A program made the position numbers and the translations under genes. This document shows, piece after piece, positions 10,234-44,665 of a DNA stretch of 64,000 nt. The DNA comes from Halanaerobiales bacterium. GTDB lineage: Bacteria > Bacillota > Halanaerobiia > Halanaerobiales > DTU029. The notes below the pieces were generated by a model that was given only the letters and a program-made list of their open reading frames with translations, did not search any database and was not told the origin of the DNA. Within the stretch, counting starts at the first letter, position 1. Each line of letters begins with the position of its first letter. The stretch lies in contig JAKSCG010000078.1 of NCBI GenBank assembly GCA_022360715.1, forward strand, positions 62,001 through 126,000, in the 5' to 3' direction.

Positions 10234-10794
10234 TCACTCCTTTGCCGCTAATAGTAATAACTCAATTACCTGACGATAAGCCCAATTTTGATTAGTCTGG
10301 TCAACCCAGATCACCTCAACCCGCTGATCATCCCAGATCCTTTTAACAAAGCGGTTCCGTTCATATTTAAGCACTCCCAACACCGGACGGGGACTGGCCA
10401 GGACCTTGATTACCTGCTGTTGGAACCGGTTCGCCCCCAGTTCGAAGCGGCCCAGTTCATCCATAATCAGTAGTTCACTCTCCCTTAACCCCTGTTCGAG
10501 CAGTTCTACCCCATACATATTAAAAGTCAAGTTCTTGACCTGCCAGACTTGATACCGGTTTCGACGGAAGGCAAAGACCTGTCCGCCGCTACCCGGAATC
10601 CGTTCCTGATAACTGCCCTGTTTATTAAAACAACTGCCGGCCGCCAGCAGTCGGAATGAGACCCAACCACCTGCCCTGCTTTGCCGGCTGGTCATAAATC
10701 CCCCCGGTTTAAGTTGCAGTTCCTGGACAGCCTTTTTAATAAGCATTGTCTTGCTGGCCCCGGAAAAGCCGGTTAAAAAGATGTTATTAACCAT
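10234..10794 (-). CDS. THEP1-like P-loop NTPase in Mo-hydroxylase operon
   Basis: About 186 residues resembling the NTPase_1/THEP1 family: N-terminal P-loop FLTGFSGASKT, then LKPGGFMTSR (the GGF.T.E-like segment of THEP1), and Walker B ELLIMDELGRFEL. The P-loop is atypical: the usual GKT is SKT. The ATG at 10794 overlaps the stop of the split hydroxylase subunit by 8 bp and has CAGGAG upstream; longer in-frame starts lie wholly inside that gene. THEP1 enzymes hydrolyse nucleoside triphosphates in vitro and have no settled role. Its position directly behind a Mo-hydroxylase suggests involvement in cofactor insertion or enzyme maturation, which is inference. Confidence 0.72.
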   Translation of the reverse strand: MVNNIFLTGFSGASKTMLIKKAVQELQLKPGGFMTSRQSRAGGWVSFRLLAAGSCFNKQGSYQERIPGSGGQVFAFRRNRYQVWQVKNLTFNMYGVELLEQGLRESELLIMDELGRFELGANRFQQQVIKVLASPRPVLGVLKYERNRFVKRIWDDQRVEVIWVDQTNQNWAYRQVIELLLLAAKE

Positions 10795-11788
10795 TAGTAC
10801 CCTGCTCCTGCCGAAGGGCTTTGATAATCTTATCCGGGGTAATCGGCAGCTCGAAAAATCTAATCCCGATCGCAGCATAGATCGCATTAGCCAGCGCCGG
10901 GGTAGCCCCGATAGTGACCGGTTCCCCGATCCCTTTAGCCCCAAAAGGACCGGCCGCATCCTTATTCTCGACCAGGCGGGAATAAAACGGGGGACAATCG
11001 AGCGCAGTCGGAATCAGATATCCGGTCAGATCGGGATTTAGGGTAATCCCGGCTTTAATTACCTGCTCTTCCATTAAGGCCATCCCCATTCCCATCACCG
11101 TTCCTCCCTCGATCTGCCCTTCCACTGCCTGAGGATTGAGCGCCTTACCCAGGTCCAGAGCGGTATCAAACCTTAACACCTCAACCAGACCGGTCGCAGT
11201 ATCCACTTCCACCTCGGCGATCTGGGTCATAAAAGTATAAGCAACATAAACCCGTTCTCCCTGGCCTGTCTCCGGGTCCGGGGCATCGGTTCTCGGAAAG
11301 AAGGAGGCCTCCGCCTGGAGCAATTCCCCTTTCTCGTGGGCGAGCCGGGCCAGTTCCTGATAACTCATAAAGTGGTCGGGCCGGTCATACCGATAGACGC
11401 GCCCGTCCTTTACCACCAGTTCCGGATGATTGCAGTGCAAGGCCAGGCTGCCATAGTGATAGAGCAAGGCCAGTACTCCCTCGGCGGCCTTTTGGACGGC
11501 ACTACCGGTAAAATAAGTCTGCCGGGTTGCTGAAGTGGAACCGGCATTTTTGGTCAAAGCAGTATCCCCCGCACTGAGCACAATCCGGTCCGGAGCTACC
11601 CGTAAAACCTCGGCAGCGATTTGGGTAAGCACCGTTAGAACACCCTGTCCGACATCAGCCGCCGCTGTCTTGACCAATATTGGGCCCTGCTCTTTGATCT
11701 CAATGGCGGCAATTGAATGGTCGGGAAAGCCTTCCCCATAACCAAAACCAAACATGATGGTGGCAATCCCTCTCCCCCGCTTTTTCAT
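10787..11788 (-). CDS. Mo-hydroxylase, C-terminal molybdopterin fragment as separate subunit (NdhM-like)
   Basis: A 333-residue protein equal to the second Mo-cofactor half of xanthine dehydrogenase-family large subunits. It contains AAADVGQGVLTVLTQIAAEVL, SATRQTYFTGSAVQ, a GxGxALMEE segment and the catalytic-glutamate block GPFGAKGIGEP near residue 285. The first half is encoded by the gene just before it, and the two overlap by ATGA. The split falls between natural domains, and each part has its own ribosome site (GGGAGGAG here), so this is a two-gene large subunit rather than a broken gene. Nicotinate dehydrogenase of Eubacterium barkeri has the same arrangement. Confidence 0.88.
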   Translation of the reverse strand: MKKRGRGIATIMFGFGYGEGFPDHSIAAIEIKEQGPILVKTAAADVGQGVLTVLTQIAAEVLRVAPDRIVLSAGDTALTKNAGSTSATRQTYFTGSAVQKAAEGVLALLYHYGSLALHCNHPELVVKDGRVYRYDRPDHFMSYQELARLAHEKGELLQAEASFFPRTDAPDPETGQGERVYVAYTFMTQIAEVEVDTATGLVEVLRFDTALDLGKALNPQAVEGQIEGGTVMGMGMALMEEQVIKAGITLNPDLTGYLIPTALDCPPFYSRLVENKDAAGPFGAKGIGEPVTIGATPALANAIYAAIGIRFFELPITPDKIIKALRQEQGTNG

Positions 11789-13059
11789 AACTCCACTCCT
11801 CCCGGCCAGTTCGACATCTGAACTGCCTCCTTAATCGTCTCCCGGACATTAACACTATCGGTTAAGACCTGACCATTAGGGGTGGAAGAACCCGGTCGAT
11901 AGGCATTCTGGTAACGGAAGCGGGCCGGATCTATCCTTAAGCGGTGGGCCAGAATATCGATCTGGGACTCATAGGCAAAAGCCAGTTGGGTCGCCCCAAA
12001 GCCCCTCATTGCCCCGGAGTAAGTATTATTGGTATAAACCGTATAGGCAATCCCGCGGACATTTTCCACATTATAGGGGCCGGTACAGTGATATAAACCT
12101 TTATGGACCACAGCCGGTCCGCTGGAGGCATAAGCACCGGTATCACCAATTATCTCGACCTGCCAGGCGGTGAGATAGCCATCCCTGGTTGCCCCGCTTT
12201 TAGCCCTGATGATCATCGGATGGCGTTTGGACTGGGTAATCATTGATTCTTCCCTGGTATAGGTCAGTTTGACCGGTCGCCTGGTCGCCAAAGCAGCCAG
12301 GGCCAGGTGAATATGAACAGAAATATCCTCCCTTTTACCAAAAGCCCCTCCGATCACCGGCTGGATAATCCGGACCCGCTCCGGGGGAATACCGAGTGCT
12401 TGGGCAATATCAGCCTGGGTATCATGTAACCACTGGGTAGCTACCCACAGTTTGAGCACCCCGGTCTCCTGATCATAAACACAAACCCCGGCCTCCGGTT
12501 GCAGCGGCAACTGTTCGACCCGGTTGGTTTTATATTCCTGTTCAATAATAAGGTCCGCCGCGGCCAATCCCCGTTCCAGCTCACCTTTATTTAACTGATG
12601 ACGACACAGAATATTACCATCCGGATGAAGCAGGGGAGCCTGTTCCTCCATGGCCCGCCGGGGATCATCAATTACCTCCAGTTCTTCTACCTCAACCCTG
12701 ATCTGAGCCAGCGCTTGCCCGGCCGCCTCCTTACTCTCCGCCACCACAATTGCCAGGGCATCACCCAAATAGCGCATCTTTTCGCCAATTCCGACCAGTA
12801 CCGGCTGGTCTTTGATGATTAAACCGAAATTATTCAGCTCGGGATAATCAGCCGCAGTGATAATTTTAACTACTCCCGGCAGTTGTTGGGCTCTGCTGAT
12901 CTCCAGTTTACGTAAAATCGCATGGGGATGGACCGCCCGTTTAACCTTAACATATAACATCTCGGCAAAGTAAAGGTCATCCGGGTAGAGCGCTCTTCCC
13001 GTCACCTTAGCCCGGGCATCAACCTTGACCAAATTTTTCCCGATAATGCGCTCATTCAT
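11785..13059 (-). CDS. Mo-hydroxylase, N-terminal molybdopterin fragment as separate subunit (NdhL-like)
   Basis: About 424 residues matching the first half of xanthine dehydrogenase-type large subunits: NLVKVDARAKVTGRALYPDDL at the start, an a/b-hammerhead domain, IQPVIGGAFGKRED near residue 235 and NTYSGAMRGFGATQ near residue 345, which shapes the substrate pocket. It ends at VQMSNW, where single-chain enzymes continue into the second half. The ATG at 13059 is chosen (AAGGAAAAG upstream; homologues begin here) and overlaps the Fe-S subunit by 8 bp; the longer frame to 13113 is inside that gene. The substrate is a purine or another N-heterocycle; genome context favours a purine. Confidence 0.88.
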   Translation of the reverse strand: MNERIIGKNLVKVDARAKVTGRALYPDDLYFAEMLYVKVKRAVHPHAILRKLEISRAQQLPGVVKIITAADYPELNNFGLIIKDQPVLVGIGEKMRYLGDALAIVVAESKEAAGQALAQIRVEVEELEVIDDPRRAMEEQAPLLHPDGNILCRHQLNKGELERGLAAADLIIEQEYKTNRVEQLPLQPEAGVCVYDQETGVLKLWVATQWLHDTQADIAQALGIPPERVRIIQPVIGGAFGKREDISVHIHLALAALATRRPVKLTYTREESMITQSKRHPMIIRAKSGATRDGYLTAWQVEIIGDTGAYASSGPAVVHKGLYHCTGPYNVENVRGIAYTVYTNNTYSGAMRGFGATQLAFAYESQIDILAHRLRIDPARFRYQNAYRPGSSTPNGQVLTDSVNVRETIKEAVQMSNWPGGVEL

Positions 13060-13537
13060 CTTTTCCTTCCCCCTTATCAGCCATTTTTTGGGCTGAGAGT
13101 CGAACCGCAGCAATGATCTTGTGATAACCGGTACAACGGCACAGATTACCGGAAAGTCCCCGCCTGATCTCCTCCACCGTTGGCCGGGGGTTTTCCTCCA
13201 GCAGCTTTTTGCTGGCCAGGATCATCCCGGGGGTACAGAAACCACACTGTACCGCTCCGGCCTCCAGATATGACTCCTGAATCGGGTCTAACCCCTCCGC
13301 ACTCCCGATCCCTTCAATCGTAATAATTTCTGCACGGTCGGCCTGCGGGGCCAGCAGCAAACAGGAGGCGACTAACTGGCCATTGAGCAATACAGTACAG
13401 GCCCCACACTCTCCTTTGCCACAACCCTCTTTAGTTCCGGTCAACTTAAGGTCGGTGCGGAGCAAGTCGAGCAAACGGGTTGTCGCCGTTGTCTCGACTA
13501 CCCTTTCTTCCCCGTTAACAGTCAGCCTGATCTGCAA
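13052..13537 (-). CDS. Mo-hydroxylase [2Fe-2S] subunit (NdhS/XdhC-type small subunit)
   Basis: A 161-residue two-cluster iron-sulfur protein. The plant-type ferredoxin cluster is held by CGKGECGACTVLLNGQLVASC (residues about 39-59) and the second cluster by CGFCTPGMI and CRCTGYHKI near residues 98 and 133. It carries electrons from the Mo centre to the FAD subunit. It overlaps the FAD-subunit gene upstream by 23 bp and the NdhL-like gene downstream by 8 bp. Size matches small subunits of three- and four-subunit hydroxylases. Confidence 0.93.
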   Translation of the reverse strand: MQIRLTVNGEERVVETTATTRLLDLLRTDLKLTGTKEGCGKGECGACTVLLNGQLVASCLLLAPQADRAEIITIEGIGSAEGLDPIQESYLEAGAVQCGFCTPGMILASKKLLEENPRPTVEEIRRGLSGNLCRCTGYHKIIAAVRLSAQKMADKGEGKDE

Positions 13538-17577: not shown

Positions 17578-18445
17578 CGGCGGCCACCTCCTCCATTATC
17601 GCCAGTAATGCCTTTTTGACCAGACTGGCCAGGGCCGGTTTTTTATAAGGGGTAGACCAGCGTTCCCCACTGAGCGCCACCATCTCCTCCCCGGCCAGCC
17701 GACCCATTTCTTCCAGGTCCAGCATCGCCACCGCTTGATTATTGAGGGCTGCTTCCACCCGAGCCAGGGGCTGCGGGTAGGGGGTCGCCGACCCGGGGAC
17801 CAGCCGGCTATCCTGGAAAAGACCGTTAGTTACCCGCACAACCAGGGCCAGGCTCAAGCGGGCAATCGTTACGGCCTTGCGCCGCCCGATCCGCTGGAAA
17901 CTCCCGTAATAATCCGGGGACGGGAGCGGCAGACGGAGAGTGGTCAACAACTCATCGGGCCGGAGACAGGTTTGATAAGGACCGGTAACAAACTGACTAA
18001 GCGGTAATACCCTGCTCCCTCCCTGGGCGGTCAGTTCAACTTCGCTCCGCAGGGCCAAGAGGGGCGGTAAGAGATCAGCAGCCGGTGAGGCATGATTGAT
18101 ATTGCCCCCCACCGTCCCCCGGTTCCTGATCTGGGTAGAACCGATCACCCGGGCTGCCTGGACCAACATGGGAAAATAGCGCCGAGTCAGCGGATTTTCG
18201 CTCAAGTCGGTATGGGTAACCAGGCTCCCGATCTCCAGCCGGTTATCCCGTACCCGGATCAACTTTAACTCCTTAATCTGGCTAATATCCAGCAGATAAT
18301 CAATTCCGGCCAAACGGTGACTCTTTTGAGCAAGATCGACCAGTAAATCGGTCCCCCCGGCCAGTAATTTCACCTTAGACCCGCTGGCCAGGTATTGTAG
18401 GGCCGCACTCAATTCCCGGGTCGTCAACAACTGAAAATCCTTCAC
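17564..18445 (-). CDS. Second Mo-hydroxylase, FAD-binding subunit
   Basis: A 293-residue FAD subunit with VKLLAGGTDLLVDLAQ near residue 23 and IGSTQIRNRGTVGGNINHASPAADLLPPLLAL near residue 97. GTG is the start; it overlaps the Mo-subunit stop in a GTGA arrangement, and no ATG is available at the right place. Electrons from the Fe-S subunit are passed here and on to an acceptor such as NAD or a ferredoxin-like protein; the conserved NAD-site features cannot be judged by eye. Part of the second hydroxylase operon. Confidence 0.93.
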   Translation of the reverse strand: MKDFQLLTTRELSAALQYLASGSKVKLLAGGTDLLVDLAQKSHRLAGIDYLLDISQIKELKLIRVRDNRLEIGSLVTHTDLSENPLTRRYFPMLVQAARVIGSTQIRNRGTVGGNINHASPAADLLPPLLALRSEVELTAQGGSRVLPLSQFVTGPYQTCLRPDELLTTLRLPLPSPDYYGSFQRIGRRKAVTIARLSLALVVRVTNGLFQDSRLVPGSATPYPQPLARVEAALNNQAVAMLDLEEMGRLAGEEMVALSGERWSTPYKKPALASLVKKALLAIMEEVAADGKG

Positions 18446-20739
18446 TTGCTCCTACCCCCTTTCCGTAAAGAACTACCAATTAGCACCCTTTCCAGATTAA
18501 GGGGCAGCGACCTAATCCGCTTACCGGTAGCCTGACAAACAGCATTGGCAATGGCGGCCCCGGCCAGTTCCAGGGTTGGTTCCCCAATCGACTTGGCCCC
18601 GAACGGGCCGTTAGGATCAGGGTTTTCGACAATAATCGGAATAATTTCCGGCAGGTCTTTAATCGTCGGGATCAAATAATCATCAAAATTGGTATTGCTG
18701 ATATAGCCGTCTTCAGTCTCAACCTCTTCCATCAGCCCATAGCCCAATCCCATCATCACCCCGCCATAGATCTGGCCCCGGACACCGGCCGGATTAATCG
18801 CCCTTCCGACATCATGGGCAGCCGTTATCCGCAACACACTAATCTCACCTGTTCCGATATCGACCTCAACTTCAGCGATCTGACAACCATAAACATAAGT
18901 AAAATAAGGGTTTCCGCTCCCTGTCTCTTCATCCCAGGAGATATCCGGGCTAAGATACCAGCCGGTTGCATTGAGCAGGACTCCCTGATAAAAAGCTGCT
19001 GCCGCTGCTTCACTAAAAGAGGTTACCGCTTTCCCCGGCCCGTTATAAATCTGTTCATCCCGAAAGACCAGCTCAGCTCCGGTTGTTTCGTACTCCCGGG
19101 CGACAAAATCAGCAAAGGTCTTTTTCAGCTTTTCGGCCGCATTCTTAACCGCATTCCCCCCGACCATAGTACTACGCGAAGCCACTGTGGCCCCACTATC
19201 CGGCACCGCGGAGGTGTCGACCGGCAGGTAGTTAATTCTCTCCGGGTCCACCCCCAGAATTTCGGCCGCGATCTGGCTGAAGATCGTCTTTAAGCCCTGG
19301 CCATTTTCGGCCAGGCCGCAGGAAAGCGTGATACTGCCGTCATTCAGGATCGCGATATTGGCTGCCGCCGCATCTATTGCCTCCGCCCCCAGGCTACAGC
19401 CCCGGTAACTTATGGCCAGACCGATCCCCCGTTTCTTCTCACCGGGCTGGCGCTGGCTGTACTCCCGGTATTTAGCCTTATATTCACTGGCGGTCAAGGC
19501 CCGCTCGAGCACCTCTTTCAGGCTGACCTGGTGATTATCGAGTCTTTGACCACTGGCGGTAATTGAATTATTATGGTAGATATTCTGCAGGCGCAATTCG
19601 ACCGGATCGATCTTCAGCTCCCGGGCCAGTTCATCAAGTAGTGACTCCTGGGCAAAAATAACCTGGGGTGAACCATAGCCGCGCATCGCACCGGTATAGA
19701 CATTATTAGTATAAAACCCATAGGTATCGGTCTTAACATGGGGTATCTCATAGGGACCGGTCGCCTGAACCACCGAGCGCCAGGTAACAAAAGGGGTCTG
19801 ACAGGCATAAGCCCCACTATCGGCCTCAGCCTTGATCTCCATCGCCAGAATTTTCCCCTCTTTGCTCGCCCCCACCTTGTATTTCATCTGATAGGGGTGT
19901 CTTTTATAACTCTCCAGCATCGACTCAACACGATCATTAACCATCTTGACTGCTTTACCTGTTTTTAAAGCAAGCAGGGCTGCCCGGGCCGCCATGGCCG
20001 ATACATTCTCATCTTTTCCCCCAAAAGAACCGCCCAGGTGATCCTGGATGACCTTAATCTGTGCTAAGGGGACCTGTAACACCCCGGCCACCGCCCGCCG
20101 GGTCGCATAGGGGTTCTGGACCGAGCCGTAAATAGTAAGCAGTGTACTATGCTGAGCGGGAACAGCAATCACCGCTTCCGGTTCCAGATAAGCGTGTTCA
20201 ATCAACTGGGTGCTGTATTCCCGTTCGAGAATAATCTCCGCTTCAGCAAAGCCAAGCTTAACATCCCCTTTGCGCAGGGTGTGGTGTGCGACCTGGTTAT
20301 CGGCCATCTCCGGGTGGACCGGCTTAACCGGTTCATCCCTGGCCTCTTCCAGCCGATAAATCCCGGGCAATTCCTCATATTCAACTTCGATCAATTCCCG
20401 GGCCTGCTCGGCTGCCTCTCTGGTCCGGGCTGCAACCACTGCTATTCCGTCACCAATATAGTAAGTCTCTCGCTCGGCCAGCACCTGCTGATTATGGATA
20501 ATCACCCCAAAGAGGTTATTCGGGATATCTTTAGCAGTCAAAACAGCCTCTACTCCCGGGTATTCCAGGGCTTTCTCCGGATTAATCCCTTTGATCCGGG
20601 CATGGGGATATTTGCTCCTCAAGACCTTGCCATACAACATATCAGGAAAGGTTAAATCAGCTCCAAATTTGGCCTGACCGGTTACCTTGGCATAGGCATC
20701 AACCCGGGTAAGCGATTTATTTACCTGACAATAACTCAA
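18442..20739 (-). CDS. Second Mo-hydroxylase, single-chain molybdopterin subunit (xanthine-dehydrogenase-like)
   Basis: About 765 residues, the usual full length for XdhA/XdhD-type catalytic subunits. Motifs in order: DAYAKVTGQAKFGADL, HLGGSFGGKDEN near residue 235, NVYTGAMRGYGSPQ near residue 350, SCGLAENGQGLKTIF near residue 480, and the catalytic-glutamate block GPFGAKSIGEP near residue 720. It hydroxylates a purine such as hypoxanthine or xanthine. The TTG at 20739 is preferred because GGAGG lies 8 bases upstream; a GTG at 20748 overlaps that ribosome site. It heads the operon after a 115-bp gap containing a palindrome. Selenium dependence, common in such clusters, is not visible from sequence. 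Confidence 0.92.
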   Translation of the reverse strand: MSYCQVNKSLTRVDAYAKVTGQAKFGADLTFPDMLYGKVLRSKYPHARIKGINPEKALEYPGVEAVLTAKDIPNNLFGVIIHNQQVLAERETYYIGDGIAVVAARTREAAEQARELIEVEYEELPGIYRLEEARDEPVKPVHPEMADNQVAHHTLRKGDVKLGFAEAEIILEREYSTQLIEHAYLEPEAVIAVPAQHSTLLTIYGSVQNPYATRRAVAGVLQVPLAQIKVIQDHLGGSFGGKDENVSAMAARAALLALKTGKAVKMVNDRVESMLESYKRHPYQMKYKVGASKEGKILAMEIKAEADSGAYACQTPFVTWRSVVQATGPYEIPHVKTDTYGFYTNNVYTGAMRGYGSPQVIFAQESLLDELARELKIDPVELRLQNIYHNNSITASGQRLDNHQVSLKEVLERALTASEYKAKYREYSQRQPGEKKRGIGLAISYRGCSLGAEAIDAAAANIAILNDGSITLSCGLAENGQGLKTIFSQIAAEILGVDPERINYLPVDTSAVPDSGATVASRSTMVGGNAVKNAAEKLKKTFADFVAREYETTGAELVFRDEQIYNGPGKAVTSFSEAAAAAFYQGVLLNATGWYLSPDISWDEETGSGNPYFTYVYGCQIAEVEVDIGTGEISVLRITAAHDVGRAINPAGVRGQIYGGVMMGLGYGLMEEVETEDGYISNTNFDDYLIPTIKDLPEIIPIIVENPDPNGPFGAKSIGEPTLELAGAAIANAVCQATGKRIRSLPLNLERVLIGSSLRKGGRSK

Positions 20740-20787
20740 TCCAGTCACCTCCAGATTTTCCTTTTCCCGGTCTTACAATTGGCTATT

Positions 20788-36985: not shown

Positions 36986-37099
36986 ATGTCGTATCAATAT
37001 AAAGTTTATGACACCCTAAAAAGCTATAAAAATTACAGCATTAAACAAGATGTATATTGTAGTAGCAGTATTTTGCTTGTCCATTATTGCAAGGGCTGA
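36986..37099 (+). CDS. Small ORF, candidate precursor peptide (37 aa)
   Basis: A 37-residue plus-strand ORF 116 bp before the ABC exporter of a radical SAM locus. It is Lys/Tyr-rich in the first two-thirds and ends in VYCSSSILLVHYCKG with two cysteines, which could be a leader-core layout for a modified peptide. The ribosome site is weak (TAGG adjoining the ATG) and there is no homologue I recognise. It may be chance. Confidence 0.25.
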   Translation: MSYQYKVYDTLKSYKNYSIKQDVYCSSSILLVHYCKG

Positions 37100-37215: not shown

Positions 37216-38775
37216 ATGAATAAATATTTATTAAAAATAAAGTGGCACATAATAATTAGTTTGTTAATATATACTTTGGAGACAATCGTAACATCTATAA
37301 TACTACTTCTACCCGGTTATTTAGTTGATCACTATATAGAAGGTATTTCGTCTATTTACTATATGGTTATGGTGTATTTCATTTCTTTTAATGTCTATTT
37401 GTTAATATGTTTCTTTTCAAACAGGCTTTCAGATTATAGGCGAGTAAAATTTGAAAAGTATATTAAGAAAGATTTTTTTAACGCCATTATTGAGAAAAAT
37501 TATTATGAATTTGGTAAATACGACATAGGAGAATATCTGTCAATGCAGGCAAACGATATTACAATGATGTGTCAAAATTATTTGAGTCCACTATTATCAG
37601 TTTACCGCTCGTTAATTATGGTCATTGTATATGGTGTTTCTTTAGTTATATTTGTTGACGCTTCTATTGCATTAGCTATTCTATTAGGGTCTCTCATGGC
37701 AGTGTGTGTACCTAGGTTAACCGCAAAAGAATTATCAAAAAGAAATAGCAACTATCTTAAGAACATAGGGAAATACACATCAAGTATTAAGAGATATTTT
37801 GAATCACGTGACATATTGGACAAAAGAAGTATTAAGCGAATAGAAAGCATTCATGAAAAGGAACTCGATTCAGTATTAGCAGATAATATGTATTTTCGCA
37901 AGCTAAACAGTTTCGCAATGGTTCTAAATGGTGGTGCAGTTGAATTTATTTCAGTTGTGACGTTTATTTTAGTTGCGATTTTACTCTATTCAGGAGAAAT
38001 AACAATTGGTATGGCTACTGCAGCTTTTATATATAGTACCAAGTTTATGGACCCTATTCATGAGTTAAACATAAATATTGGTAGAATTAAATCGATAAAA
38101 GGAATTATCAAAAAACTAATGACTATTATGCAAGAAAAGAATAATGATCCATTAAGATGTCCCAGTAATATAAAGAAAATAGACATACGAAATGTAACAA
38201 AAAAATTCAAGGAGCTTGAAATTGCCATTCCAAATATGCAATTTATTTATCCCAATAAGTATCTAATAATTGGTGATAATGGAGCTGGTAAAAGTGTTTT
38301 GCTACGAATGTTAATGGGATTTTATAAGTCTGATAGTGGAGACATATTATATGATGGATTAACGGATAATAACATCGATCGATTAAATGCTTATGTTCCC
38401 CAACATCCTGTTATATTTGAAGCAAGCTATTATGATAATATTACATTATACGGAACTTATGATGACCAAAATTTAATGCTATACGAGTCATATTTTCCAT
38501 TGGATTTAATTGAGCGTGTTAAAAGTAACATTATGAGTAAAAATTTAAGTGGTGGAGAAAAACAAGTCATTGGATTACTAAGAGCATTATGCAGCAAAAA
38601 ACCCGTTCTTTTACTTGATGAACCATTTTCTGCTATGAACAACAAAGCAATAATAAAATTTTTATCATATATGGATCAAATCAATTGTATGATGATAGTT
38701 ATTGCACATAATATCAATGATTATTCTTGCTTTAAAAGCGTACATACTATTGAGAGGTTAAATAAAAAAGAATAG
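37216..38775 (+). CDS. ABC exporter, fused membrane and ATPase domains
   Basis: A 519-residue half-transporter. Residues ~1-290 contain about six membrane helices of the exporter type; the ATPase domain follows with Walker A GDNGAGKSVLLR, signature LSGGEKQV, Walker B PVLLLDEPF and H-loop IVIAHN. There is no C39 peptidase domain at the N-terminus, so any leader would be removed elsewhere. GAAGG precedes the ATG. It is followed 12 bp later by a radical SAM/SPASM gene, which suggests export of a modified peptide. It is intact although its downstream partners are broken. Strongly AT-rich codon usage. Confidence 0.88.
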   Translation: MNKYLLKIKWHIIISLLIYTLETIVTSIILLLPGYLVDHYIEGISSIYYMVMVYFISFNVYLLICFFSNRLSDYRRVKFEKYIKKDFFNAIIEKNYYEFGKYDIGEYLSMQANDITMMCQNYLSPLLSVYRSLIMVIVYGVSLVIFVDASIALAILLGSLMAVCVPRLTAKELSKRNSNYLKNIGKYTSSIKRYFESRDILDKRSIKRIESIHEKELDSVLADNMYFRKLNSFAMVLNGGAVEFISVVTFILVAILLYSGEITIGMATAAFIYSTKFMDPIHELNINIGRIKSIKGIIKKLMTIMQEKNNDPLRCPSNIKKIDIRNVTKKFKELEIAIPNMQFIYPNKYLIIGDNGAGKSVLLRMLMGFYKSDSGDILYDGLTDNNIDRLNAYVPQHPVIFEASYYDNITLYGTYDDQNLMLYESYFPLDLIERVKSNIMSKNLSGGEKQVIGLLRALCSKKPVLLLDEPFSAMNNKAIIKFLSYMDQINCMMIVIAHNINDYSCFKSVHTIERLNKKE

Positions 38776-38787
38776 AAAGGTGATAAG

Positions 38788-39816
38788 ATGTTGAGTCTAT
38801 CTTACATTGAAAATAAATATAAAGAAAATAAGATATTACATACAATTACAATTGAGTTACTTAATCATTGTAATTGGAATTGTATGCATTGTTATCTTGA
38901 TAGAGATAAAATAGTTATGCAAAACATAAAATTTTTGAACTTATTGATGAGTCTAGGAATTTAGGAGCATTTGAAGTAAAATTATCAGGTGGTGAAATCA
39001 CAACAAGAGACGATTTAGCAGAAATAGTTGAGTATGCTAGAAAAAAATATTTAAATGTTGTTTTGATTACAAATATGTCTAGATTAAGTGATGATTTATA
39101 TAATTGCATTAATAAATATGGTGTTAGTAGAATAGAGGTTACACTATTTTCATTGAATGAAGATATACATGATAAATTTGTTGGTGTTAAAGGAGCTCTT
39201 AATAAAACACTACAAAATATTAGTATGCTTAAGTCTTTAGGTGTGGATATTCTAATAAAAATTTGGGTGATTAAAAGTAATATAAATGAGCTTGATGAAA
39301 TGATAGATTATTTTCAAACGGAAAGGGTATGGTTTTAATATACATACACAAATTTATAAAGATATACATGGAAGTTTTAAATTACCATCGGTACTGCAAT
39401 TAACAAATAAAGAGTATGCTAAAGCATTATATTTAAGTGATAAGAGTCTACGAAGGGCTTTCCCCCTTAATAACATGGAAGGTAACATGCTTTGTGAGGA
39501 ATTTCTAAATTCATTCTATATTACATCTAATGGAAATGTTATACCTTGTGCTAAGTTTAGGAAAGCTATTGATAATATTTATAATAATAGTTTATCACAT
39601 ATTTGGAATACTTCTGAAAGATGGCATTGTATACAAAAGTATTCCTGGGCTGATGCAAAGGATTGCAAAGGATGCATAGACAAACCGTATTGTGTTAGAT
39701 GTGGAGCTATGTCTTTCATCGAAGGGCTAGATTCTTTAGATAACTGCAATGAAACATGTAAATTAGCAAAGATTAGACATTTAAAATATTGTGTAGGAGA
39801 TGAAAGTAATGAGTAA
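38788..39816 (+). pseudogene. Radical SAM/SPASM peptide-modifying enzyme, two frameshifts
   Basis: Three frames together encode one radical SAM/SPASM protein. Part one (from the ATG at 38788, GAAAGGTG upstream) contains CNWNCMHC, the CxxxCxxC [4Fe-4S] motif. A single-base loss near 38918 shifts to the frame reading KHKIFELIDESRNLG and LSGGEITTRDDL. A second shift near 39325 leads to GYGFNIHTQIYKDIHG and a C-terminal SPASM-type domain with CAKFR, CKGCIDKPYCVRC and CNETC cysteines. Such enzymes install thioether or carbon-carbon links in peptides. Two independent lesions plus a truncated next gene favour real decay over sequencing error. Confidence 0.82.
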
Positions 39817-39920
39817 ATTAACATTATCCAATCATATTTCATGGCAGATGATACCGAAAGAGAATTTTGCATTTGTATATAATATTAGGACATGCAAATA
39901 CTATAGGCTCAATGTGGCAC
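39809..39920 (+). pseudogene. PqqD-like (RRE) protein, truncated
   Basis: The frame begins MSKLTLSNHISWQMIPKEN, then FAFVYNIRTCKYYRLN, which fits the start of PqqD-type precursor-recognition domains (the GKYYRLN strand). It overlaps the end of the radical SAM gene by 8 bp. After YYRLN at about 39920 the sequence becomes the antisense of the next gene, so the last half is missing, probably removed by recombination. Supports a RiPP-type pathway. Confidence 0.62.
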
Positions 39921-39929
39921 GGAAGCACC

Positions 39930-40196
39930 TTAATTTTTCCATCGCTCTAATTTTGGGATCCCACGAGTGGCCAGCCAGGCAAAAATTCCGTTAATTCCAT
40001 CTTTTTTCATTTCTCGAATGCAATACTCTTGCATTTTTTTAGCATTGTCAACTTCCGGCGGAGTTAAAAATTCCCCATTTTCGTAACACATGGAACAATA
40101 CTTCGTACTGATCGAACCATCTTTTTCTGTGCCACCGCCTTTTTTATCATTTTTCATTGGAAAACCACAACTCTGACAAAACTTATATTCTTCCAT
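39930..40196 (-). CDS. Small zinc-ribbon protein
   Basis: An 88-residue protein with a four-cysteine ribbon: CQSCGFPM (residues 7-14) and KYCSMCYENGEF (residues ~32-43), matching the putative zinc-ribbon family found alone or beside methyltransferases and transcription regulators. The C-terminus (AWLATRGIPKLERW) is typical of it. Function unknown; perhaps a transcription or protein-interaction factor. GGAGG precedes the ATG. Its 3' end touches the break in the PqqD-like gene. Confidence 0.82.
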   Translation of the reverse strand: MEEYKFCQSCGFPMKNDKKGGGTEKDGSISTKYCSMCYENGEFLTPPEVDNAKKMQEYCIREMKKDGINGIFAWLATRGIPKLERWKN

Positions 40197-40318: not shown

Positions 40319-40470
40319 TATCCGCTCGTCAGAACAAGGGGCATAGCTTGTTCGTTCTGTCGTCTAACGTTTGCGGTGACCCGAAGTTGGCGACCATCGG
40401 AGCCAATTTGGGTGAAGCATCGAAGGAGCGGACCCGGGTAATCGCTGTTGTGCGGTGAAGCGAGCTATTT
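40319..40470. other. GC-rich patch with hairpin potential, origin unknown
   Basis: About 150 bases of markedly higher GC inside very AT-rich DNA. It contains a perfect hairpin (GAACAAG - 8 bases - CTTGTTC) and a run of GC-rich short blocks (GTCTAACGTTTGCGG, GGAGCGGACCCGGG). No convincing protein is encoded. It may be a dispersed repeat, a structured RNA or a recombination-site remnant. The gap 40197-40473 holds nothing else. Confidence 0.45.
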
Positions 40471-41353: not shown

Positions 41354-41489
41354 TATAGAGCACCTCTGCTTCCTTGAGCACATCATTTCTTAAAGCTGAT
41401 CCAAATAAAGATAATTTCGTGATATGATGTCTGAGACAATATTCTTTTATTTTTTTCATTGACACCTTTTTGTTATCAATTAATCGCAT
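41343..41489 (-). pseudogene. MntA-type nucleotidyltransferase remnant
   Basis: A 48-residue frame with CACGGAGG upstream. KIKEYCLRHHITKLSLFGSALRNDV matches the N-terminus of minimal nucleotidyltransferases (helix, then F-GSALR-D). The sequence stops before the DxD catalytic pair. With the HepT remnant it marks a deleted antitoxin/toxin module. Confidence 0.6.
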
Positions 41490-41527
41490 GCTATGCCTCC
41501 GTGAATTTTTATTTTCTCAAAATCTTC

Positions 41528-41548
41528 GATTTAGTGGGAGAGGTTCAC
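41528..41548 (+). repeat. Dispersed GATTTAGTGGGAGAGG repeat, copy D
   Basis: GATTTAGTGGGAGAGGTTCAC at the end of the flavin-reductase-like gene. The surrounding ~60 bases (41489-41549) are duplicated at 42379-42440 in the same orientation, with CCTCCGTGAAT at the left end. Confidence 0.65.
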
Positions 41549-42244: not shown

Positions 42245-42342
42245 GAACAAACTGGCCTAACGGCATAATCGTAATAAGGTAAATTTCTTGATATATAGGA
42301 AATAGTAAGTTATCTATCTACTATAGTTTCCTAATATATCAA
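42245..42342. repeat. Palindromic dispersed repeat R2, copy 1
   Basis: Opens with GGCCTAACGG, then CATAATCGTAATAAGG and TTCTTGATATATAGGAAA; the right half repeats inverted as TTTCCTAATATATCAA, making a long hairpin. A second copy is at 44571-44660. MITE-like in size and structure, without a coding region. Confidence 0.65.
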
Positions 42343-42418
42343 ATAGCCGTGTAAGCTGGGCCAAATAAGGCTAATCGCCTGCTATCCTCCGTGAATCTTT
42401 TATTTTTTTAAAATCTTC

Positions 42419-42439
42419 TATTTAGTGGGAGAGGGTCAC
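42419..42439 (+). repeat. Dispersed GATTTAGTGGGAGAGG repeat, copy E
   Basis: TATTTAGTGGGAGAGGGTCAC, part of a ~60-base duplication of the region at 41489-41549. It lies between R2 and the HEPN gene. Confidence 0.65.
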
Positions 42440-42483: not shown

Positions 42484-42861
42484 CTATAATAGTTCAACAA
42501 CTAACAATTTGAATTCCTTAATAAATTTTTCAACTTCTACAGCTTGTTCTTTTACTACATCTTTGTCAAATTCGACAAAGGGTGTATAGTCAGCTTGATA
42601 TCGCGTATTAAATAATTCATCATATATTCTTCCGGTTTCTTTATTTATCTTTCCCGTTTTCACAAAATCTCTATGAAGAGCAGCTCTTACCCCAGAATGT
42701 TTTCTATAACTTTCTCCTTTTGCTGTTAAAATTGCTGTTATTGCATAAAACATTGCATAATATAAACGATTAACTGCAAATGATAATCTTCCATAGCTGA
42801 TCTCACTTTTAGCGGATGCTATACTTTCTTCAGATTTTTCAAGCCAATACTTTATTAATTG
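42484..42861 (-). pseudogene. HEPN-domain protein without a recognisable start codon
   Basis: The frame encodes a full HEPN domain: YWLEKSEESIASAKSEISYGRLSFAVNRLYYAMFYAITAI, then RKHSGVRAALHRDFVKTGKI and ETGRIYDELFNTRYQADY. The first ATG (42753) lies in the middle of the domain, at the AMFYA helix; ahead of it the frame runs to CAA-TTA-ATA after an AAGGAA site with no ATG, GTG or TTG. So the start appears mutated. It follows an MNT gene, as in MntA-HepT-type modules. Treated as likely inactive. Confidence 0.65.
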
Positions 42862-42873
42862 TTTTTTTCCTTA

Positions 42874-43230
42874 TTATAGATACTCACTTAAAAATACACC
42901 TTCTTTCTGAATTTCTTGATAAAAAGGTGTAATTTTCATTAATCCTTCCCACTTTTCCCGTTCTAAAACAACTATGCTTATATTAGTATCATATTTTAAA
43001 TTGATTTCAAATACCAGGTCTGATATATTATTTCTGATGCGATGTGTTGCTTTTTCTTTGATCAAGATTAACAGATCTAAATCCGATTCTTCATCAGCGT
43101 CTTGACGTACAAAAGACCCAAAAACAGCCATGTTATAAATAATGTAACTTTTTTTTATTTTTGTGTTCAACTCTTTTAAAGCTTTTATCTGATTGTCAGT
43201 TAATAAATAGTCTAAAGATAACTTTGCCAA
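42874..43230 (-). CDS. Minimal nucleotidyltransferase (MNT, MntA-like antitoxin)
   Basis: About 118 residues with the core motif YNMAVFGSFVRQDADEESDLDLLILI (residues ~33-58: GSxxR, then DxD), typical of minimal nucleotidyltransferases that AMPylate HEPN toxins. The TTG at 43230 is chosen: AGGAG is 8 bases upstream, while a GTG at 43239 lies in that site. It ends 12 bases before the HEPN frame. Its toxin seems to have lost its start codon. Confidence 0.82.
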   Translation of the reverse strand: MAKLSLDYLLTDNQIKALKELNTKIKKSYIIYNMAVFGSFVRQDADEESDLDLLILIKEKATHRIRNNISDLVFEINLKYDTNISIVVLEREKWEGLMKITPFYQEIQKEGVFLSEYL

Positions 43231-43285
43231 AATAAACACTCCTTTCTTTCAGCAAAAGTTTTGACTTTTATAGTTATAGTATACA

Positions 43286-44570: not shown

Positions 44571-44660
44571 CAAATTGGCCTAACGGCCATAATCGTAATA
44601 AGATAAACTTCTTGATATATAGGAAACAGTAAGTTATCTACATTATAATTTCCTATAGAT
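44571..44660. repeat. Palindromic dispersed repeat R2, copy 2
   Basis: About 90 bases closely matching 42245-42342 (GGCCTAACGG, CATAATCGTAATAAG, CTTGATATATAGGAAA). The right arm is shorter than in copy 1. Ends just before the glutamate dehydrogenase terminator. Confidence 0.65.
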
Positions 44661-44665
44661 TAAAA

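Follow-up and report, generated by a model that had tools for sequence, protein, structure and literature searches.

In the window, by which is meant the whole 64 kb stretch of DNA that was analysed, an ABC exporter gene, a radical SAM (rSAM)/SPASM gene and the beginning of a PqqD-type gene follow one another in that order (Table 1). The host assembly is a draft of 4.03 Mb in 256 contigs with a completeness of about 92%. A sequence-only reading had seen here a decaying locus with the three-part set of RiPP pathways, and both points are borne out: the domain types of exporter, rSAM/SPASM enzyme and PqqD recognition protein were all recovered, and the locus is damaged, with the rSAM gene in three frame pieces and the PqqD-type gene lost at a junction after about 35 codons. 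G+C content is 0.291 in the exporter, 0.278 in the rSAM gene and 0.286 in the PqqD-type gene, against flanks of 40-45% (0.454 left, 0.395 right), and on this compositional ground the locus is probably an acquired, foreign cluster that has since decayed. A decayed transposase-like stretch lies upstream (weak DDE_3 match, 0.06), the sequence at 40340-40470 occurs once in the host genome, and an Rfam search of the AT-rich island returned no match. Integron cassettes were considered as the source of the junction and rejected, as no match to an integron integrase passed the cut-off of the model.

Table 1. Features of the exporter-rSAM-PqqD locus and its right-hand border (window coordinates).
Feature	Position	Strand	Evidence and state
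ABC exporter (permease + ATPase, 519 aa)	37216-38775	+	intact frame; Pfam ABC_membrane, ABC_tran
rSAM piece 1, CxxxCxxC motif	38788-38964	+	CNWNCMHC; 56% identity over 36 aa to Defluviitaleaceae enzyme
rSAM piece 2, barrel	38913-39338	+	Pfam Radical_SAM 4e-16; frame differs from piece 1
rSAM piece 3, SPASM domain	39325-39816	+	Pfam SPASM 2.2e-9; piece 1 frame resumed
PqqD-type gene, first ~35 codons	39809-39913	+	SSH-cluster PqqD profile E 6.5e-6; rest lost
Junction, PqqD frame lost	39914-39929		adjoins 3' end of zinc-ribbon gene
Zinc-ribbon gene	39930-40196	-	PF12674 1.6e-20

The same AT-rich island also holds a HEPN (PF05168) and nucleotidyltransferase (PF01909) gene pair on the reverse strand (42484-43239), likely an MNT/HEPN toxin-antitoxin system. 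A palindrome (GGCCTAACGGC..., about 90-116 bp) occurs at 42250-42365 and 44573-44664; it has 11 matches in the genome and resembles a small mobile repeat of the non-autonomous kind. A 68-bp direct repeat, 79% identical between its copies (41481-41548 and 42372-42439), flanks a flavin-reductase-like gene.

The three pieces of the rSAM gene (38788-39816) lie in frames 1, 0 and 1, and the two shifts therefore cancel. Homology in the first piece, which carries the CNWNCMHC motif, stops near 38930, after which the frame continues to a stop. The two frameshifts noted earlier are thus present in the sequence as assembled, and Pfam models recover the Radical_SAM domain on the middle piece and the SPASM domain on the last. 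All Fe-S cluster-binding cysteines are retained in the alignment, including those of the SPASM piece. For searches and trees the broken gene was read through with X at both joins, its bases being left unrepaired. At 51 positions common to eight other compared enzymes the window enzyme deviates ten times and the others 0-3 times each, a pattern compatible with relaxed constraint, with a distinct lineage or with the two combined.

The PqqD-type gene overlaps the rSAM stop, reads MSKLTLSNHISWQMIPKENFAFVYNIRTCKYYRLN, and is non-homologous from about 39914, with the zinc-ribbon gene's 3' end following within some 16 nt. The Pfam PqqD model does not detect this fragment because the surviving part precedes most of the model. 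A custom profile of nine PqqDs from the SSH-related clusters described below, searched against all six-frame pieces of the window, picks out the fragment at E 6.5e-6, the next best piece having an E of 0.9. The alignment starts close to the N-terminus, extends over some 40% of the profile and then meets the junction, and the earlier description of a PqqD-like gene cut in half is a fair one. In tblastn the 35 residues find the start of a Defluviitaleaceae PqqD gene (41% over 29 aa, 1e-5); a pairwise comparison with the Macrococcoides PqqD gave no alignment, and the PqqD link thus comes from the profile and the Defluviitaleaceae sequence only. Pfam confirms the intact relatives of the fragment as true PqqDs.

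Five-gene clusters, composed of a PqqD, two rSAMs, a precursor of about 40 aa and an ABC exporter, contain the closest relatives of both the rSAM and the PqqD pieces; these clusters occur in Streptococcus, in two clostridial MAGs and on a plasmid of Macrococcoides. The sole match in a plasmid search with the SPASM piece was in Macrococcoides bohemicum, where the rSAM adjoins a PqqD, a second rSAM, an ABC exporter and a 40-aa peptide that belongs to NCBIfam NF050043, "SSH motif RaS-RiPP peptide" (7e-25), as do the Streptococcus precursors. A three-sequence profile of window and Macrococcoides rSAMs, applied to 84,980 genomes (one per species), gave 13 loci, the scan using short exact peptide patterns and therefore missing relatives without them. 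The eight top-ranking loci all have the SSH-type make-up, two rSAMs together with a PqqD, a precursor and an exporter, and comprise six from Streptococcus, one from a Defluviitaleaceae MAG (L012) and one from a Clostridium MAG (L013). A class can thus be named where the sequence-only reading recognised none: the closest relatives form the SSH family of RaS-RiPPs, to which NF050043, the tree and the PqqD profile all point and whose entry in a 2026 review reads "Function not characterized" (PMC13361665). The same reading had suggested that an intact copy in related strains could represent a new peptide family. Unbroken homologues with a precursor do exist, but in distant Bacillota: no close rSAM relative was found in 60 related genomes (only weak SPASM matches at 26-36%), in a class-level search (two matches at 28-29%) or, with a threshold of 1e-30, among 399 genomes from the phylum, and among viral contigs only distant rSAMs matched the profile.

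Gene order is PqqD-rSAM-precursor-rSAM-exporter in Streptococcus and Macrococcoides and rSAM-precursor-PqqD-rSAM-exporter in the two clostridial clusters (L012:7956-12127 and L013:6447-10760). The precursor cores are QCSGSSSH in Macrococcoides, LCSGGS(S/A)H in Streptococcus, and NCSGSSTH and ACSGCSTH in the clostridial pair; the Defluviitaleaceae precursor has 36 aa and ends NCSGSSTHSMSAN. Against NF050043 the clostridial precursors score 13.7 and 20 bits with a cut-off of 45, which places them by score outside the curated family though they share its enzymes and core, and the family model looks too narrow. In the Clostridium cluster rSAM A is full length apart from an in-frame TAG (L013:6849-6851), which is either a second broken copy of the family or a sequence error.

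Read through, the window rSAM is 29-34% identical to full-length SSH rSAMs and groups with them in the tree with support of 98/96, or 93/95 when rSAMs from other plasmid loci are added; very long-branched rows (L067_y, L007) were left out of interpretation. In the enlarged tree the SSH rows without the window have support of 53/87, and the window enzyme may lie either within the SSH enzymes or immediately beside them. Its likeness to the Streptococcus and Macrococcoides clusters extends to the PqqD N-terminus (ISWQMIP in the window, AWQMxP in SSH) and to the layout of the ABC exporter. The differences are that those clusters have two rSAMs and a precursor of about 40 aa with CSG(S/G)S(S/A)H, whereas the window has one broken rSAM and no precursor, at about 30% identity and in a different gene order. 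The closest single match is rSAM A of the Defluviitaleaceae cluster (34%), and the clostridial clusters likewise combine rSAM, PqqD and exporter, although with two rSAMs, in another order and with precursors present (CSGSSTH, CSGCSTH). SkfB makes thioethers and YydG epimerises; these two are among the solved structures nearest to the Defluviitaleaceae relative (E 6e-14 and 1e-6), though distant from it.

The placement admits another reading, in which the locus once formed a separate RiPP system, a sister of SSH with a single rSAM and a core peptide unlike that of SSH, and its likeness to SSH reflects nothing more than common ancestry. The long branch of the window rSAM, the modest support for the SSH enzymes without it, the changes at ten otherwise invariant positions and a gene order absent from all intact clusters seen would each agree with such a system. 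Decay alone can lengthen a branch, however, the PqqD fragment matches the SSH set too, and the homologues found include none with a different precursor; an independent sister system is judged rather unlikely.

The exporter had been called intact, and it is open for 519 codons with both ABC domains (Pfam ABC_membrane 4e-7, ABC_tran 1e-20); no peptidase domain was found in it. With the exporter from the SSH cluster of Macrococcoides it shares 28% identity across 496 aa, but stand-alone exporters in Clostridia, without any rSAM, are equally close or closer, and it was rejected as an SSH marker because its best relatives there stand alone. Viral contigs gave no exporter match. Against the streptosactin system the exporter matches GggC at 92 bits and the N-terminal rSAM piece matches GggB at 20 bits, far under the curated cut-offs of 750 and 650. 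Given such solitary relatives in Clostridia, the exporter may persist longer than the rest of the cluster, and it might still work by itself, having been retained in some other role once the peptide genes were dead, an idea compatible with the main explanation. Its intact frame would agree with this, but recent decay would also leave an intact frame, and continued service of the exporter is considered rather doubtful. One clostridial genome carries two stand-alone exporters of the window type (L038, G542:C24; L039, G542:C33), the first surrounded by four similar proteins of about 500-590 aa with a near-identical lipoprotein-like start.

The partners expected of an SSH cluster are missing. A precursor profile found no SSH-type precursor in the 64 kb window, and in the host genome the best match to NF050043 reaches 15.4 bits (cut-off 45) in an unrelated place. 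A short frame that precedes the exporter (36986-37099, 37 aa, ending YCSSSILLVHYCKG) was examined as a precursor and set aside, having no family match and being absent from the precursor-profile matches; a precursor of another type in the truncated locus is possible. Beyond the window copy the host genome holds no rSAM of this kind, a second enzyme having been either lost or absent from the start, and no PqqD domain over threshold elsewhere. With an assembly about 92% complete, missing parts could sit in gaps.

It is improbable that the rSAM is really intact, with both frameshifts being assembly or sequencing errors and the damage confined to the PqqD end. The cancelling shifts, the retained Fe-S cysteines and the draft of 256 contigs would be in keeping with such errors, as would a similarly split gene elsewhere in the window, the reverse-strand xanthine dehydrogenase large subunit (10787-13113). 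Its two frames share an ATGA overlap, and compared with the paralogue at 18442-20748 it lacks about 14 residues; it represents a natural split, a frameshift or an assembly error. The majority of large genes in the window are uninterrupted, however, partner genes are missing, and the junction that truncates the PqqD-type gene is beyond what indel errors can produce. We infer that both frameshifts are real; the PqqD truncation and the missing partner genes are independent of that question. That the rSAM comes from a pathway not concerned with peptides, for instance haem synthesis (AhbD/NirJ-like), is extremely improbable, for although TIGR04545 is the top NCBIfam match of the second piece, it scores 72 bits against a curated cut-off of 500 and is also the top match of SSH rSAMs (about 100 bits), and the exporter and PqqD neighbours and the tree position with SSH rSAMs speak against it.

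Taken together, the locus is probably what is left, in inactive form, of an RaS-RiPP cluster that was gained by horizontal transfer and is related to the SSH family, and as a RiPP cluster it is almost certainly dead in this host genome. Assignment to the SSH subfamily itself is tentative because no precursor is left, and with 29-34% identity and deviations at 10 of 51 positions the window may instead represent a sister lineage with different chemistry. In the general RaS-RiPP scheme one or more RaS enzymes modify a precursor, which is then trimmed and exported, and an operon may encode two RaS enzymes as well as an RRE; sactionine, beta-thioether, ether and Lys-Trp links are among the known RaS modifications (PMC13361665). 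In the intact acquired cluster a PqqD-type protein would have bound a short precursor through its leader, one or two radical SAM/SPASM enzymes would have modified a short Cys/Ser/Gly/His core, and the modified peptide would have been trimmed and then exported by the ABC transporter. In the window the rSAM gene carries two frameshifts, the PqqD stops after about 35 residues, and a precursor and a second rSAM are missing. We infer this order of the pathway, and likewise the appearance of the lost precursor. A Cys-centred link on SSH cores would be plausible because the Cys is conserved in every core found.

The dead copy tells little by itself, and its value is that it points to two-enzyme clusters in Clostridia with a Cys-Ser-Gly-x-Ser-x-His core. 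More speculatively, and with fairly low confidence, the window and the two clostridial clusters could belong to a wider and older SSH-like family outside the streptococci, whose enzymes modify a CSGxSxH core in a way not yet described, the window lineage having had its own core sequence. The clostridial clusters suggest that SSH peptides are not solely a streptococcal invention, and diverse enzyme-precursor pairs are now at hand for testing SSH chemistry.
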